A stretch of DNA of 64,000 bases from Neobacillus sp. PS2-9 (lineage in GTDB: Bacteria; Bacillota; Bacilli; Bacillales; Cytobacillaceae): the NCBI RefSeq assembly GCF_030915525.1, contig NZ_CP133269.1, positions 1,327,001 to 1,391,000 on the forward strand, read 5' to 3'. Position numbers and translations under genes: made by a program. Position 1 is the first letter of the stretch. Each line of letters begins with the position of its first letter. Below the pieces are notes generated by a model. The model did no database searches, was not told the DNA's origin, and saw only the letters and a program-made list of their open reading frames with translations. Of this stretch, positions 2,036 through 55,585 are shown piece after piece.

Positions 2036-2605
2036 ATGGAACAGAAAACGCATTTCTTCTTTGCTGTTAGGATGCCCGAAGCAACAAAACTAATGATGAA
2101 GGAACATATTGAAAAAATAAAAGCTGTAATTCCTTTTAGCCGCTGGGTACATTTTCAAGATTTACATATCACCTTGGCTTTTTTGGGTGCAGCATCCCCA
2201 GAAAAACTAGCAACAGCTGCTAGCAATGTGAAAGATGCCTTAAATAATGCAAAGCCATTCCAATTAAAAATAAATAGACTTGGTTTTTTCGGAAGTAGTC
2301 ACTCTCCACGTGTTTTTTGGGCAGATACAGAGGAAAGTAATGAACTAAATCTTTTAAGGAATAAGGTGTTTTCAGCTTGTGAAGACGCGGGATTTGAACT
2401 GGAGACAAGGCCCTTCCGTCCCCATATTACCTTAGCAAGAAAGTGGATAGGCGAAAAAGCATTTCAACAGACACTTCTCGAAATATGGAACGAGCTCCAA
2501 TCAGAGCCGCTCGCTTTTCAAGCGAATGAGGTGGTTTTATATCAAACACATCTCCATAAAACACCAAAATATGAAGCAATCCAGGTATTTCCACTAACGG
2601 AATGA
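2036..2605 (+). CDS. thpR: RNA 2',3'-cyclic phosphodiesterase (LigT/ThpR family)
   Basis: A 189-residue 2H phosphoesterase. Both signature HxTx motifs are present: HITLAFLG near residue 43 and HITLARKW near 129. The family opens 2',3'-cyclic phosphates on RNA and can ligate tRNA halves in vitro. Its physiological role is not settled. The name corresponds to B. subtilis ytlP. Start ATG with AAAGGA about 11 bases upstream. A mobile repeat lies directly after the stop codon, separating it from the lipid-kinase-like gene. Confidence 0.87.
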   Translation: MEQKTHFFFAVRMPEATKLMMKEHIEKIKAVIPFSRWVHFQDLHITLAFLGAASPEKLATAASNVKDALNNAKPFQLKINRLGFFGSSHSPRVFWADTEESNELNLLRNKVFSACEDAGFELETRPFRPHITLARKWIGEKAFQQTLLEIWNELQSEPLAFQANEVVLYQTHLHKTPKYEAIQVFPLTE

Positions 2606-2615
2606 AAAACAAATA

Positions 2616-2798
2616 GGCTATGTTAAAGAACATTGTTGATTTTTATCCCCTGTTGATTGGAGCGGAAGACGCGAAGACTCCTGTGGGAGTACGGGTCAGG
2701 GGAGACCCCGCAGGCGCTAGCGCCGAGGAGGCTCGCCGAAACGCCCACGGAAAGCGAAGCGCCTGGAGCGGAAATCAACAGACACGTTTAACAGAGCC
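2616..2798 (+). mobile_element. MITE family A, copy 1
   Basis: A 183 bp non-autonomous element. Ends are GGCTATGTTAAAG and TTTAACAGAGCC, imperfect inverted repeats. It is flanked on both sides by the identical 8-mer AACAAATA (2608-2615 and 2799-2806), a target-site duplication. The interior has an outer CTGTTGATT/AATCAACAG stem and three local hairpins, ACTCCTGTGGGAGT, GGGGAGACCCC and GGCGCTAGCGCC. It contains no transposase. It sits between thpR and the ytlR-like gene, two bases from that gene's ribosome binding region. Confidence 0.93.
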
Positions 2799-2821
2799 AA
2801 CAAATAAAAAAGGTTGGTATT

Positions 2822-19639: not shown

Positions 19640-19680
19640 AAACGGTGAAGTGATAAAATGACTTCACCGTTTATTTTTAT
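19640..19680 (+). terminator. Terminator after ytxH
   Basis: Stem AAACGGTGAAGT / ACTTCACCGTTT with a 9-base loop, then ATTTTTATTTA. The T-tract overlaps the target duplication of the adjacent MITE. Confidence 0.82.
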
Positions 19681-19683
19681 TTA

Positions 19684-19865
19684 GGCTTTGTTAAAGAAGA
19701 TAGTTGATTTTTATACCCTGTTGATTGGAGTGGAAGGCTCGAAGACTCCTGTGGGAGTACGGTTCAGGGGAGACCCCGCAGGCGCAAGCGCCGAGGAGGC
19801 TCGCCGAAACGCCCACGAACCGCTCGAGCCTGGAGCGGAAATCAACAGACAAGTTTAAAGAGAGC
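19684..19865 (+). mobile_element. MITE family A, copy 2
   Basis: 182 bp. The left end GGCTTTGTTAAAG is well kept. The right end is decayed to TTTAAAGAGAGC. Flanking 8-mers TTTATTTA and TTTTTTTA agree at 7 of 8 positions. The internal stem GGCTCGA (19736-19742) pairs with TCGAGCC (19824-19830), and GGTTC pairs with GAACC inside it. Inserted in the T-tract of the ytxH terminator, ahead of ytxJ. Confidence 0.9.
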
Positions 19866-19928
19866 TTTTTTTAAAGTAGGTCGGGTTCATTGCTGACAGT
19901 ATGCTTTTTTTAATGGAGGAATGTAAAG

Positions 19929-20438: not shown

Positions 20439-20534
20439 AAAGCCTAATTATTGAAATATTATAAAATTAAAAAATTTTAAGTGTAAATCATTATGAGTTT
20501 AGTAAGATTTGCAAATGAAAGGACGGGGACGAAT

Positions 20535-21614
20535 ATGGGCAAAAAGGTTGAATTGGATCAATTAAGAACACGTGTCGATGAGTTAAACTTGGAATTATTG
20601 AGGCTAATTAATGAAAGAGCTCAGCTCGTCCAAGAGATTGGACGGGTAAAAGAAAATCAAGGTGTGTACCGTTACGATCCAGTCCGTGAAAGAAAAATGC
20701 TTGATATCATTAAAGAGCATAACGATGGACCATTTGAAAATTCTACAATCGATCATATTTTCAAAGAAATTTTTAAAGCAGGTTTAGATCTTCAAAAGGA
20801 TGATCATGAGAAAGCCCTGCTTGTATCTAGAAAGAAGAAGCCTGAAAATACGATTGTAAACCTAAAGGGAGAAACTATAGGTGATGGCAAGCCACATTTT
20901 GTGTTTGGTCCATGTGCGGTTGAATCCTATGAGCAGGTAGCGACGGTTGCTAAGGCGATGAAGGAAAAGGGCTTAAAGCTTCTCCGTGGTGGTGCATATA
21001 AACCAAGGACATCTCCTTACGATTTCCAAGGATTAGGTGTGGAAGGGCTAAAAATCTTAAAGCGTGTAGCAGATGAATACGATATGGCAGTAATTAGCGA
21101 AATCGTAAACCCAGCCGATATTGAAATGGCTTTAGATTATATTGACGTTATCCAAATTGGTGCACGGAACATGCAGAACTTTGAACTATTAAAAGCTGCA
21201 GGGGCAGTAAATAAACCTGTATTGTTAAAAAGAGGGATTGCTGCCACGATTGAAGAATTTATCAATGCAGCAGAATACATTATGGCACAAGGGAATGGCC
21301 AAATCATCCTTTGTGAACGAGGTATTCGGACATACGAGCGTGCTACTAGAAACACACTTGATATTTCGGCAGTTCCAATTCTTAAACAAGAAACCCATTT
21401 ACCAGTAATGGTAGATGTTACTCATTCTACTGGTAGAAGAGACTTGTTATTACCTGCTGCAAAAGCGGCGATTGCCATTGGTGCAGACGGAGTCATGGCT
21501 GAAGTTCATCCAGATCCGGCAGTGGCCTTATCCGACCAAAAGCAACAAATGGACCTTGACCAATTTGACAAATTTTATAATGAATTACTAGCATCAAACT
21601 TTGTACGGATTTAA
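20535..21614 (+). CDS. aroA: Bifunctional chorismate mutase / DAHP synthase
   Basis: First enzyme of the shikimate pathway fused to a chorismate mutase, 359 residues. The N-terminal AroQ domain (about 1-90) has [20 protein letters not shown] and RVKENQ. The C-terminal type I-beta DAHP synthase domain has VFGPCAVES (metal Cys), [27 protein letters not shown] and [14 protein letters not shown]. Fused chorismate mutase gives feedback inhibition by chorismate or prephenate in Bacillus. Start chosen at ATG 20535. A longer in-frame start at 20493 has no ribosome binding site. Named aroA in B. subtilis (aroG elsewhere). A MITE lies between its stop codon and its terminator. Confidence 0.96.
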
Positions 21615-21620
21615 TTTTTT

Positions 21621-21805
21621 GGTTGTGTTAATGAACAGTGTTAATTTTTTATAACCTGTTGATTGGAGCGGAAGGCACGAAGACTCCTGTGGGAGTATGG
21701 TTCAGGGGAGACCCCGCAGGCGCAAGCGCCGAGGAGGCTCGCCGAAACACCCACGGAAAGCGAAGTGACTGGAGCGGAAATCAACAGACAAATTTTAACA
21801 GAGCC
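21621..21805 (+). mobile_element. MITE family A, copy 3
   Basis: 185 bp. Ends GGTTGTGTTAAT and TTTAACAGAGCC. Perfect 8 bp direct repeats AATTTTTT flank it (21613-21620 and 21806-21813), the left one starting inside the aroA stop codon. Because the aroA terminator lies beyond it, the element is transcribed as part of the aroA 3' untranslated region. The distal arm of the covarying stem is diverged here (GGCACGA versus AAGTGAC). Confidence 0.93.
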
Positions 21806-21819
21806 AATTTTTTAAAAAA

Positions 21820-30502: not shown

Positions 30503-30667
30503 CAATAGCATCACCTCATCTAAAATCACATACATTATAGCATATAGAAGGTATAAAAACTGACAACCTTCTACATTTTTCTGAAATTTCCAGTGGATGT
30601 TTGACATGCTCTTTGAAATGTGATAAAAAAAGCTATAGTTAATTTTAATAAAAAGCTTTGACAGGAA

Positions 30668-32165
<1,498 letters not shown>

Positions 32166-42041: not shown

Positions 42042-43628
42042 ATGAAAAGGGAAGATTTGATTGCACCTGAAAAGTATAATCTTGTTTCTGAAGTAGAACG
42101 TTTTGCAAAAGATCCAAACAAAGTAGCATTGAAATGGGAAAGTGAGTTTGGGGAGACAAGGCAGGTTACATACGAGAATTTATTGAAGCAAGTAAATCAA
42201 GCAGGCAATGTTTTTATCGAAAATGGCTTAAAAAAAGGCGATGTTGTTCTTGTTATTGTACCGCGTCTCATTGAAGCCTACGTAGTCTATTTAGCTGCAT
42301 TAAAAGCAGGAATGGTTGTTATTCCAAGTTCTGAAATGTTAAGGGAAAAAGATTTGCAATACCGAATTACACATGGCGATGTGAAGGCGGTGGTCAGCTA
42401 TTATCCATATGTAGACCAATTTAAAAACATAAACGAAACACAACCAATTGTAAAGTTTACAATTGGGGCAGAGGAAGAGGGCTGGATTCATCTAGATGCA
42501 GAAATGAAACAGGCAAAAAATGATTTCCTACTTGCAGATACATTAAGAGATGATATGGCGTTTTTATCTTATACTTCTGGTACAACGGGAAATCCGAAAG
42601 GTGTTGTCCATACCCACGGTTGGGCGTTTGCTCATTTAAAGACCGCTGCACCAAAATGGCTTGCTATTGAAGAAGGGGATACCGTTTGGGCGACGGCAGG
42701 TCCTGGCTGGCAAAAGTGGATATGGAGTCCGTTTTTATCAGTACTTGGTTCAGGGGCAACGGGGTTAGTATATAACGGAAAATTCGAGCCAAAAAATTAT
42801 TTAAGCCTTTTGCAAAAATATGCAGTTAATGTATTATGCTGTACACCAACTGAGTACCGCTTAATGGCGAAGGTAGATAATTTAACTGATTATCAGTTAC
42901 CAAACCTTCATAGTGCGGTATCTGCTGGGGAGCCATTAAATCGTGAGGTTATTGATACGTTTAGGAAATATTTTAACGTTGAAGTTCGTGATGGTTATGG
43001 TCAAACGGAAAACACATTGCTTGTAGGTGTAACAAAAGGAATGGAATTGAAACCAGGATCAATGGGAAAACCAACGCCTGGAAATAGGGTGGAAATTATT
43101 AACGAAGAAGGCCAGGTGTGTGCCGTTGGAGAGGTTGGAGATATTGCTGTCCACGTAGAAACACCGGCATTATTTAAAAATTATTACAAAGATCCTGAAA
43201 GAACCGCTATGCAATTCCGTGGGGATTATTATGTAACGGGTGATAAAGCTAAAATGGATGAAGATGGATATTTCTGGTTTGAAGGACGCGGGGATGATAT
43301 TATTATAAGCTCTGGCTATACCATTGGACCATTCGAAGTAGAGGATGCTCTAGTTAAGCACCCATATGTTAAGGAATGCGCAGTGGTGGCTAGCCCAGAT
43401 GAAATTCGGGGATTCATTGTTAAAGCATTTGTTGTCTTAAAAGAGGATGTAGACCCTGCTGACCCAGAATTAACAAAAAACCTGCAGGAACATGTAAAAA
43501 CATTAACTGCACCATATAAATATCCTAGAAAAATCGAGTATTTAACTGAGCTTCCGAAAACGACTTCAGGAAAAATCCGTCGTATAGAGCTTAGGCAAAA
43601 AGAGTTTGCAGCGGCTAAACAGGTTTAA
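42042..43628 (+). CDS. ytcI: Acyl-CoA synthetase / acetate-CoA ligase-like (YtcI)
   Basis: AMP-forming ligase of 528 residues from the medium-chain acyl-CoA or acetyl-CoA synthetase branch. Adenylate motif SYTSGTTGNPKGVVHTH (about residue 175), YGQTENT, YYVTGDKAKMDEDGYFWFEGR and the catalytic lysine in KTTSGKIRR at residue 511. The acid substrate cannot be read from sequence. It is a paralogue of AcsA in this window, and AcuA might also acetylate its Lys511. ATG start with AGGGGGAG seven bases upstream. Confidence 0.88.
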   Translation: MKREDLIAPEKYNLVSEVERFAKDPNKVALKWESEFGETRQVTYENLLKQVNQAGNVFIENGLKKGDVVLVIVPRLIEAYVVYLAALKAGMVVIPSSEMLREKDLQYRITHGDVKAVVSYYPYVDQFKNINETQPIVKFTIGAEEEGWIHLDAEMKQAKNDFLLADTLRDDMAFLSYTSGTTGNPKGVVHTHGWAFAHLKTAAPKWLAIEEGDTVWATAGPGWQKWIWSPFLSVLGSGATGLVYNGKFEPKNYLSLLQKYAVNVLCCTPTEYRLMAKVDNLTDYQLPNLHSAVSAGEPLNREVIDTFRKYFNVEVRDGYGQTENTLLVGVTKGMELKPGSMGKPTPGNRVEIINEEGQVCAVGEVGDIAVHVETPALFKNYYKDPERTAMQFRGDYYVTGDKAKMDEDGYFWFEGRGDDIIISSGYTIGPFEVEDALVKHPYVKECAVVASPDEIRGFIVKAFVVLKEDVDPADPELTKNLQEHVKTLTAPYKYPRKIEYLTELPKTTSGKIRRIELRQKEFAAAKQV

Positions 43629-43635
43629 TGAAAAT

Positions 43636-43663
43636 AAAGCAGGCGGTGGCTACCGTCTGCTTT
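43636..43663 (+). terminator. Terminator after ytcI
   Basis: Perfect 12 bp stem AAAGCAGGCGGT... / ACCGTCTGCTTT (one wobble) with a 4-base loop, then ATTATTTT. Confidence 0.85.
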
Positions 43664-43674
43664 ATTATTTTCAA

Positions 43675-43856
43675 GGCGCTGTTAAACTTGCCTGTTGATT
43701 TCCGCTCCAGGCACGAGCGGTTCGTGGGTGTTTCGGCGAGCCTCCTCGGCGCTTGCGCCTGCGGGGTCTCCCCTGAACCATACTCCCACAGGAGTCTTCG
43801 TGCCTTCCGCTCCAATCAACAGGGTGTATAAATCAACACTGTTCTTTAACACAGCC
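43675..43856 (-). mobile_element. MITE family A, copy 4
   Basis: 182 bp, inverted relative to copies 1-3. Ends GGCGCTGTTAAAC and TTTAACACAGCC. Perfect 8 bp duplication ATTTTCAA (43667-43674 and 43857-43864). The covarying stem reads GGCACGA (43710-43716) and TCGTGCC (43798-43804). It lies just past the ytcI terminator. Confidence 0.93.
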
Positions 43857-43947
43857 ATTTTCAAGTCAAATTAATCCCCTATTTTAAGTTATTCGGGTTA
43901 TAATAGAGATTATTTCGATACTAGAAAGAATAGGGGCTCGAGAATAT

Positions 43948-44880
43948 ATGAAACGGACGGAACTTCAGCAGGGAGCCATCCATGCCGGCTTTTCCTATTT
44001 ACTTTGGGGATTATTGCCGATTTATTGGAAGTTTTTAGACCAGGTTAATGCACAGGAAATACTGGCGAACCGAGTATTTTGGTCATTTATTTTTATGATT
44101 GTAGTGTTGATTTTTACAAAAAAGTGGGAACTGTTTGTCCAAACGTTTAAAGGATTTGCTCAAAACAAAAAACAGCTGTATGCATTAACGATTGCTTCAC
44201 TACTAATAAGTGTCAATTGGTTTGTTTATATTTGGGCAGTTAATAGTGGGCATATGATTGAAGCGAGTTTAGGGTATTATATTAATCCACTTGTTAGCAT
44301 CTTATTAGGAATGGTGGTTTTGAAGGAGAAATTAACGATTTATCAATATATCTCCTTTGTTCTGGCTGCCGTTGGGGTTGTCATTTTAACAGTAGCCCAT
44401 GGTGCATTTCCTTGGATTGCAATTACCTTAGCTGTATCGTTTGGCTTGTATGGATTAGCAAAGAAACTGATTAATGTTGAATCTGCAGTGGGATTGACTT
44501 TAGAAACCATGGTGGTTGCCCCAATTGCTGCTATTTATATGATAATCTTATTTAGTCGTGGTGCGAATACTCTTTTCTCTTCAACTTTGGGAACGGATTT
44601 ACTTTTAATTGGAGCAGGAGTAGCAACCGCTGTGCCTTTGCTTTATTTTGCAAAAGGAGCTCAGAAAATCCCATTATCCCTATTAGGGTTTTTACAATAT
44701 ATTGCACCTACACTTACTTTGATTTTAGGTGTTTTTGTGTATAATGAACATTTCTCGAAGGTTCAGCTTTTGTCATTTATGTTCATTTGGTCAGCGTTAA
44801 CTATTTATTCGCTTTCTAAAACAAAGCTGATTTCGGAAAAGGGTTTGAAATGGCGGAGAGAAAAGAGAACAAGTATGTAA
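43948..44880 (+). CDS. rarD: EamA-family transporter RarD
   Basis: Integral membrane protein of 310 residues with about ten hydrophobic segments in two EamA halves. It opens with the RarD signature GFSYLLWGLLPIYWK and has NWFVYIWAVN and LGYYINPL. RarD proteins are predicted drug/metabolite exporters, with substrate unknown. ATG start with a poor Shine-Dalgarno (GGGGCTCGAG). It is bracketed by two MITE copies. Confidence 0.87.
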   Translation: MKRTELQQGAIHAGFSYLLWGLLPIYWKFLDQVNAQEILANRVFWSFIFMIVVLIFTKKWELFVQTFKGFAQNKKQLYALTIASLLISVNWFVYIWAVNSGHMIEASLGYYINPLVSILLGMVVLKEKLTIYQYISFVLAAVGVVILTVAHGAFPWIAITLAVSFGLYGLAKKLINVESAVGLTLETMVVAPIAAIYMIILFSRGANTLFSSTLGTDLLLIGAGVATAVPLLYFAKGAQKIPLSLLGFLQYIAPTLTLILGVFVYNEHFSKVQLLSFMFIWSALTIYSLSKTKLISEKGLKWRREKRTSM

Positions 44881-44887
44881 TATAAGG

Positions 44888-44920
44888 GGCAGACTCCATA
44901 TAAGATGAGTCTGCCTTTTA
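44888..44920 (+). terminator. Terminator after rarD
   Basis: Stem GGCAGACTC / GAGTCTGCC with a 10-base loop, then TTTTATTATTAT. The final AT-rich tract is the left target duplication of the next MITE. Confidence 0.82.
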
Positions 44921-44927
44921 TTATTAT

Positions 44928-45108
44928 GACCATGTTAAACTTGCCTGTTGATTTCCGCTCCAGGCGCGAGCGGTTCGTGGGCGTTTCGGCGAGCCTCCTC
45001 GGCGCATGCGCCTGCGGGGTCTCCCCTGAACCGTACTCCCACAGGAGTCTTCGCGCCTTCCGCTCCAATCAACAGGGTGTAAAATCAACACTGTTCTTTA
45101 ACACAGCT
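44928..45108 (-). mobile_element. MITE family A, copy 5
   Basis: 181 bp, same orientation as copy 4. The left end GACCATGTTAAAC has drifted and the right end is TTTAACACAGCT. Flanking 8-mers ATTATTAT (44920-44927) and ATAATTAT (45109-45116) agree at 7 of 8. The covarying stem is GGCGCGA (44963-44969) with TCGCGCC (45051-45057). The right duplication includes the stop codon of the NAD kinase gene, which stays intact. Confidence 0.9.
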
Positions 45109-45112
45109 ATAA

Positions 45113-45916
45113 TTATAAATAGGTTCTTTTTACTTTTTCCCAGAAGGAGTTGTCTTTTAGTTTTAATGTTTTTAGCTTTTTATCACTAATTTTTACTTGG
45201 ATTTTATCAACATGGCGGATGCTTAAGGCTTCGTTATCCATGCCCATGGTTGGATGATCATTTCCTTCAGAAATGACTTTAAGTGTCAGGGTACGCTCAC
45301 TTCCTAAAATAAAGGAAGCGCCGAGTGTCCGGTAACGATTGGTATTCACTGACGCAACCTCGCTTACCTGCATACAAGATAATAGAGGATCGACTACTGA
45401 ACCATTTACTGATTTATTATAGGCTGTACTTCCTGTTGGTGTTGCAACAATTAAACCATCTCCGCGAAAGGTTTCGAAATGTAATTGGTCGACAAATACA
45501 TCCAAAACAAGTGTTTTAATGATAGAAGATCGAATGCTGAACTCATTCAAACATGGGAACGTCCCTTGGCCATCAACAGTTACTTCAATGGTTGGATAGC
45601 GACGGACCTCAATATGTTCATTAGTTGTAATGGCTTCTATCATTTTTGAGGTATCACTGATTCGAAAATCACAATACATACTTAAACTATTTTTAGTGGA
45701 GATTCCCATATAAAGACAATCATCACGAAAGCCTGTTTTTCTAACAGCTTGCAGAAAGGTCCCATCATCGCCAATACTGGCAATAATATTCGCTTTCCGA
45801 TAATCATTTACCATGGTAAAACCGTAGCGGTCAGCCAATTCAAAAAGTGGAGCGGCTTTTGAAAGCATGTCTGCATCACGCTTATGATAAAAATAAATGT
45901 TACGTCTTAATTCCAT
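45113..45916 (-). CDS. nadK: NAD kinase (YtdI-like)
   Basis: ATP-dependent NAD kinase forming NADP, 267 residues. The phosphate-binding motif is ASIGDDGTFLQA (GDDGT in place of the usual GGDGT), then NEFSIRSS, DGLIVATPTGSTAYNKS and a C-terminal MGMDNEALSIRHVDKI. This is the second NAD kinase type in Bacillus (YtdI), which can also use polyphosphate or other NTPs in some species. ATG start with AAAGGAGGC ten bases upstream. Its stop codon is next to a MITE. Confidence 0.9.
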   Translation of the reverse strand: MELRRNIYFYHKRDADMLSKAAPLFELADRYGFTMVNDYRKANIIASIGDDGTFLQAVRKTGFRDDCLYMGISTKNSLSMYCDFRISDTSKMIEAITTNEHIEVRRYPTIEVTVDGQGTFPCLNEFSIRSSIIKTLVLDVFVDQLHFETFRGDGLIVATPTGSTAYNKSVNGSVVDPLLSCMQVSEVASVNTNRYRTLGASFILGSERTLTLKVISEGNDHPTMGMDNEALSIRHVDKIQVKISDKKLKTLKLKDNSFWEKVKRTYL

Positions 45917-55344: not shown

Positions 55345-55585
55345 CAAAAAAACCAGCTTCTAGTCAGAAACTGGTTTTGAGTGCTAAGTATGTAGCCGCC
55401 ATTGCCGTAAGAAATATAAGAAAGTTTTAAACCACCACTCCTCAAAGTGGGTGTTTTCAGAAGCTTTTCTGCGTGTCCTCCATGTCTTATAGACAAAGGC
55501 TTGTCATTCCAGCTTCAATGGTTAAACTCCCTATTACAGCTTAAAGGTTAAAACTTTATTATGATTACGTACAACGCAGCTTGTA
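55345..55585 (-). ncRNA. Candidate structured small RNA or IS200/IS605-derived RNA relic
   Basis: Minus-strand unit of about 240 bases with its own promoter (55591-55619) and intrinsic terminator (stem AAACCAG / CTGGTTT, then T7, at 55347-55378), and no credible reading frame. Long-range pairing joins 55546-55562 to 55416-55433 (16 of 18 positions). Inside it are GAAGCT/AGCTTC (55460-55465 with 55511-55516), TGTC/GACA (55483-55486 with 55492-55495) and hairpin CCACT/AGTGG (55435-55450). Weaker outer pairing also brings the ends together. The rod shape suggests a 6S-like RNA. The internal text instead recalls the right end of IS200/IS605 (TnpB/omega-RNA) elements. Neither is proven. Confidence 0.5.

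Follow-up and report, generated by a model that had tools for sequence, protein, structure and literature searches.

The window analysed here is a stretch of 64,000 nucleotides (G000:C1:1327001-1391000) within the 5.19-Mb one-contig chromosome of Neobacillus sp. PS2-9. It contains five copies of a MITE, all of which were re-found with the coordinates, strands and lengths of 181-185 bp that a first-pass annotation had given them. The copies and their parts are the following.

2608..2615, + strand: left 8-bp duplication of copy 1, AACAAATA; the site is uninterrupted in the relative G142
2616..2798, + strand: MITE copy 1, 183 bp, starting 11 bp past the stop of the open reading frame 2036-2605 (+)
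2649..2784, + strand: structured core of copy 1, CCTGTTGATTGGAGC ... GGAAATCAACAG plus the bases that follow, placed by alignment and pair counts
2799..2806, + strand: right 8-bp duplication of copy 1, AACAAATA, forming a perfect pair with the left one
19684..19865, + strand: MITE copy 2, 182 bp; duplication 19676-19683 / 19866-19873, TTTATTTA/TTTTTTTA, matching at 7 of 8 positions; empty in G142
21621..21805, + strand: MITE copy 3, 185 bp, 7 bp past the stop of the open reading frame 20493-21614 (+); perfect duplication AATTTTTT at 21613-21620 / 21806-21813; empty in G142
43675..43856, - strand: MITE copy 4, 182 bp; perfect duplication ATTTTCAA at 43667-43674 / 43857-43864; empty in G142
44928..45108, - strand: MITE copy 5, 181 bp, adjoining the stop of the open reading frame 45113-45916 (-); duplication 44920-44927 / 45109-45116, ATTATTAT/ATAATTAT, matching at 7 of 8 positions; empty in G142

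Three of the duplications are perfect and two match at 7 of 8 positions, just as had been claimed. An element of about 182 bp has no room for a transposase gene. The window also holds a T-box leader (30649-30867, + strand) and a 6S RNA gene (55389-55585, - strand), both above the Rfam gathering score.

The window copies are members of a large family. With up to 2 mismatches allowed, a 16-mer from the core matches the chromosome 195 times (101 on the forward strand, 94 on the reverse), against a single match for the reversed-pattern control. The exact 16-mer occurs 136 times, the highest count of the 151 genomes searched; it is present in 85 of these sampled genomes, and in 13 of 25 genera of Bacillaceae. 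From 100 fetched stretches and the window, 152 unique copies were located, 129 of which have sufficient flank and no more than 4 mismatches of 13 at either end; the other 23, without two recognisable ends, were excluded from the counts of ends, duplications and gene context. Most genomic copies had been expected to carry flanking direct repeats, and 93 of the 129 indeed match at 7 of 8 positions or better, 65 of them perfectly, where re-paired random flanks give chance levels of 2.6% and 0.2%, respectively. Other duplication lengths from 4 to 12 yield at most 8 perfect cases of 130 (length 4 gives the 8, and no other length exceeds 5; one copy is counted twice in this test). The target logo of the 93 copies shows T at -1 (88%) and A at +8 (87%) around eight mostly A/T positions, and the reconstructed target is palindromic, T-rich before and A-rich after. 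Mini-elements of 71-90 bp lacking the core centre make up 5 of the 129 copies, including G000:C1:5172978 and G000:C1:1113533, the latter of which retains a 7/8 duplication. The exact sequence GGCTNTGTTAAAY has 68 matches in this chromosome, and 29 of the 30 fetched carry a MITE match; the remaining one lies inside a response-regulator gene and is taken as chance. Phage sequences gave no MITE match, only weak matches to the end sequence, and the exact end pattern is absent from the scanned viral contigs. Two Nostoc plasmid hits (H35, H36) were set aside, as they have only a short stretch in common (within the transposase gene in L258) and no end pair.

The comparison with the relative G142 provides direct views of unoccupied sites. 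The joined flanks of all five window sites align there as five single contiguous alignments, with 94-98% identity. For 45 of the 152 copies, matches to both flanks were obtained in a G142 stretch of 800 kb: 43 sites are without element, none is filled, and 2 mapped elsewhere. The junction is clean at 38 of the 45, with flanks overlapping by 5-11 bp, approximately as expected from a single 8-mer. Five more sites show small differences (-14, -3, -2, +9, +11) and no element in G142; the +11 site is 1445144, where the local sequence differs in G142. The first-pass annotation had staked its reading on orthologous empty sites with one copy of the 8-mer, which these 38 junctions and the five uninterrupted window sites provide, and its claim of real insertion events is borne out by the duplications together with the empty sites. 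The G142 stretch itself has three matches to the MITE plus a fragment of 33 bp, and the complete G142 genome has 13 exact cores. Since the sites are empty and G142 has few copies, most of the tested copies are recent; as judged from these alignments, they arrived once this lineage had separated from a relative with 94-98% identity in the flanks of the window sites.

It could be argued that many copies are old and that G142 lost them through precise excision, a reading to which the more distant genome G094 brings both support and objections. In a comparison over 400 kb, with flanks about 78-95% identical, 18 sites of the studied chromosome were mapped (one more, 2208137, was discarded as falsely mapped). 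Nine of the 18 share their spacer with one of 24 G094 elements. Under random placement the mean would be 1.7 to 2.6, and none of 5000 trials reaches 9 under each of three weightings. At site 1445144 the two elements rank 1 of 24 and 2 of 145 in similarity, and this element looks inherited in common with G094. The descent of the one at site 1219006 appears ambiguous: it ranks 2 of 24 and 63 of 145, with the same orientation and, by eye, the same duplication position. The element pairs in the other seven shared spacers do not stand out in similarity, ranking no better than unrelated copies, and the same seven sites show a single-copy junction (-7 or -8) in G142. Insertion points, compared by eye in the alignments, either coincide to the base or lie up to about 15 bp from each other; one pair is in opposite orientation, and one pair besides 1445144 opposes a long to a short variant. 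Some of the seven pairs indeed have insertion points as much as about 15 bp apart, one pair is oppositely oriented and one mixes two subfamilies, so that old copies precisely excised from G142 are improbable as a general explanation. Independent insertion into the same spacers is the simplest reading, although gene conversion between copies could mimic the lost similarity.

The element ends give the main clue to the mobiliser. The inverted repeats are bipartite, with GGCTNTGTTAAA followed by TGTTGA at +18; of the 129 copies, 117 have this second box at offset 18 of the left end and 113 at offset 18 of the right end, one mismatch being allowed. The terminal inverted repeats first described are thus present, but their proposed length of 12 bp falls short of a longer, two-box structure. 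The IS1595 ends of the Bacillales group read GGCTNTGTTAAA-N6-TGTTGAT, with identical box spacing, and Bacillales IS1595-family elements agree with the MITE in ends, 8-bp duplication and T-W8-A target. Plasmid searches with the MITE end sequences led to elements with such ends. A full-length IS1595-family element from Pontibacillus (L265) measures 1392 bp and has a perfect duplication, TAATATAA, and a right end with 5 mismatches; its 347-aa transposase matches NF033547 (E 2.5e-62) and PF12762 (E 4.4e-12). A scan of named genomes produced 158 IS1595 relatives, 80 of which were kept. Both ends score at least 16/18 in 35 of them; when the ends were selected without regard to the duplication, 33 of these 35 have one of at least 7/8, perfect in 32. 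At the other 45 loci, no good second end was found up to 700 bp away from the match, or the contig ended. Genus-wide, 13 of 30 fetched IS1595 loci, counted by hand, have both ends (scores of at least 15) and a duplication of at least 7/8. IS1595 insertions in Neobacillus niacini (L312) and N. cucumis (L341) have flanks and ends equal to those in the same-genus genomes G155 (L427) and G167 (L424).

Elements without transposase occur with the same type of ends: L257 (1924-2710, 787 bp), which carries a GNAT gene, and L260 (2501-2970, 470 bp) have perfect duplications, ATTTTTTA and TAAATAAT, and L256 (2501-3118, 618 bp) has a 7/8 duplication and a right end with 5 mismatches. These three lie on Aneurinibacillus and Alkaliphilus plasmids, their cargo being the GNAT gene or small unknown genes. 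Seven other plasmid loci have only one such end each. The IS1595 elements themselves have a varying open frame downstream of the transposase, of at least 80 codons in 25 of 33 resolved elements. Twenty of these 25 frames were tested and 13 match Pfam at E <=0.001: GNAT (four), glyoxalase-type (three), and one each of NUDIX, M50 (just below its cut-off), HIT, DUF3916, pentapeptide and 2'-5' RNA ligase. Loci L269-L346, from named Bacillales genomes, associate related IS1595 transposases with different single passenger genes between transposase and right end. The MITE body has no convincing match in the IS1595 elements searched, apart from short end matches; one partial MITE match lies in the flank of L272.

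Since its ends, duplication and target all match IS1595, the MITE family is regarded as IS1595-related, and IS1595 insertion sequences most likely move it. In the proposed mechanism, a DDE transposase of the IS1595 type, provided in trans, would bind the ends at their two boxes and place the MITE in a palindromic, A+T-rich target (TTT, then eight A/T bases, then AAAA), which would leave the 8-bp duplication behind. Mobilisation in trans had been proposed at first pass; mobility is supported by the duplications and empty sites, and we infer the trans component from the shared ends. On this sequence evidence, the five window copies are very probably part of about 195 IS1595-related MITEs mobilised in trans by a transposase of the IS1595 type.

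Other families, such as IS6, ISL3 and IS256, can produce 8-bp duplications. Among the candidates first named (IS6, ISL3 and IS1595), only the last is retained, on ends, duplication and target, since no IS6 or ISL3 transposase has a match in this genome. Multi-copy IS256 elements are present in it, but 30 IS256 loci of the genus show no such end pair around the gene, and IS1595 elements matched on ends, duplication and target together. Mobilisation by another 8-bp-duplicating family is therefore highly improbable.

The expected driver is nevertheless absent from this genome or unseen; the sole IS1595 match there has an internal stop and one recognisable end, of a different type (GGCTGTTTTCGTAAA). 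No autonomous IS1595 partner with matching ends was found in the chromosome, which is taken as absence of the driver and not as absence of the relationship. Across 28 genomes of the genus, core count and IS1595 count are not correlated (Spearman -0.10, p 0.61), and neither G094, with 85 exact cores, nor G144, with 66, has an IS1595 match. Given the single broken IS1595 and this lack of correlation, the transposase would have been lost, lie on an unseen replicon, or act intermittently. The copies have a median identity of 94% to their own consensus (121 copies), a divergence which exceeds that from one very recent source.

Structural features of the core were analysed on an alignment of 56 cores from G000, G094, G039, IS1182 elements and plasmids, selected among 40 cores from elsewhere and 45 drawn at random from G000, with fragments and long-insert variants set aside. 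The hairpin predicted from it comprises 31 pairs; 97.6% of the cells are paired, and slid versions pair in at most 51%. Changes on both sides are observed at 10 pairs; the covariation score is reached by none of 500 shuffles, and the number of further pair types is within the shuffle range (80/500). Copy 4 folds better than shuffles on both strands (z -4.1 and -4.7). The excess of G-U over A-C, counted by hand, comes almost entirely from column pair 52-103, and either strand fits. Rfam gave no match at the MITE copies, either over the whole window at gathering scores or over 43400-45400, which includes copies 4 and 5, with E values of up to 1 admitted. A core variant with about 60 bp extra is seen in Neobacillus G094 (L197, L223, G094:C1:1576223), and a Peribacillus plasmid copy (L065) has an insert similar to this long variant.

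The core has a second home in IS1182, beside or inside which it lies in 9 of 30 loci of the genus. It flanks the element on both sides, pointing outward, in L070, L073, L079 and L086, and it lies in the 5' leader of plasmid IS1182 transposases (L063 by annotation, L062 by resemblance). The whole MITE is found within IS1182 in L068; its ends are decayed in L071 and hardly recognisable in L075, with the core kept in both. This retention of the core while the MITE ends decay suggests, from the sequences compared, that the core of about 130 bp may have a value of its own. Eight of eight fetched IS1182 loci (L469-L476, in G098 and G166) have, by eye, a terminator-like stem-loop on both sides, and these targets look as if the whole hairpin had been duplicated upon insertion.

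All of the 8 further fetched copies of two IS1182 types hold the core, in blocks at least 99.9% identical, which might suggest that the copies spread chiefly as passengers of multi-copy IS1182 elements and were then left behind. The 8-bp duplications, however, flank the MITE itself, and the chromosome with the most exact cores of the 151 genomes has no IS1182 match. Spread as IS1182 passengers is thus contradicted for this genome, and deserves very little credence as the main route; it could hold for single copies elsewhere.

Gene context was assessed for the 129 copies with a simple open-frame gene caller. None of them falls inside a continuing open frame, bearing in mind that a cut gene would appear as two flanking frames. 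In spacers between tandem genes, 60 copies are co-directional with the genes and 21 antiparallel (p 1.7e-5); 25 more lie between convergent and 22 between divergent genes, one being unclassified. In the first 15 listed copies, the co-directional to antiparallel ratio is 8:3 for G039 and 13:0 for G094, together 21:3. The palindromic target does not set the orientation, so either transcription guides insertion or selection removes the opposite orientation. The co-directional share is 27/40 in copies with a perfect duplication and 33/41 in the rest, and, as a test of selection by age, this higher share without perfect duplication is only suggestive. A replichore bias was considered and rejected: the first listed G039 matches are all on the + strand, but the fuller list mixes both strands. 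The MITE strand agrees with the smoothed GC skew in 81 of 129 copies, and gene direction is no worse a predictor: next to lagging-strand genes there are 12 copies, 8 pointing the same way as the gene and 4 the opposite way.

The co-directional position behind genes and the strongly covarying core would also be expected of a REP/BOX-type hairpin family kept for regulation and not a transposon. Duplications and empty sites contradict this as a sole explanation, which leaves it barely credible, and a function of the core could still come on top of transposition. That the core is a functional RNA or DNA hairpin, taken up by two unrelated transposon families and kept by selection, is a tentative proposal, and rather doubtful at present. 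If true, the core, lying co-directionally behind many of its roughly 200 sites, could act on transcript 3' ends (stability, read-through, insulation) or shield the transposons from outside transcription.

Among known systems, the IS1595 family, as represented by IS1595-annotated Bacillales elements, resembles the MITE in ends, 8-bp duplication and A+T-rich target. This family is reportedly the subject of a paper by Siguier, Gagnevin and Chandler in 2009. The MITE differs from it in having no transposase, a length of 182 bp and a body not found in the IS1595 elements searched. The bcr1 repeats of the Bacillus cereus group are likewise intergenic, high-copy Bacillus repeats, regarded as mobile; a 5-bp duplication and a different sequence would set them apart. 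MITEs and mobile insertion cassettes are named classes in PMC3129680; they are likewise short, with inverted repeats, duplications, no transposase and presumed movement in trans, whereas the body here is a covarying structured module recurring in a second, unrelated transposon family. That source also mentions passenger-bearing 'transporter ISs', with the IS1595 paper cited alongside. The IS1595 relatives of the MITE fit this description, as they carry a varying gene after the transposase, or in some cases only a gene (L257); the MITE, in contrast, carries none. Searches by sequence pieces and by topic found no description of this MITE family in the literature covered, which is mostly other than subscription papers; nine papers contain one of the 12-mers searched, and going by title or the opening of the abstract none of them concerns a Bacillus repeat.

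The repeat is thus a real, recently amplified IS1595-related MITE family of about 195 copies in a Neobacillus chromosome. Three of its features were unforeseen by the first-pass annotation, namely the core in common with IS1182, the gene-directed orientation and the re-hit spacers. A specialist would not expect the conserved core, its second home in IS1182 or the re-hit spacers. An abundant Bacillaceae repeat is now linked to a transposase group, and a conserved fold is carried by two unrelated transposons, with a role that is directly testable. Two species appear to have acquired insertions in the same spacers independently, so that a common position is not in itself a sign of common descent.
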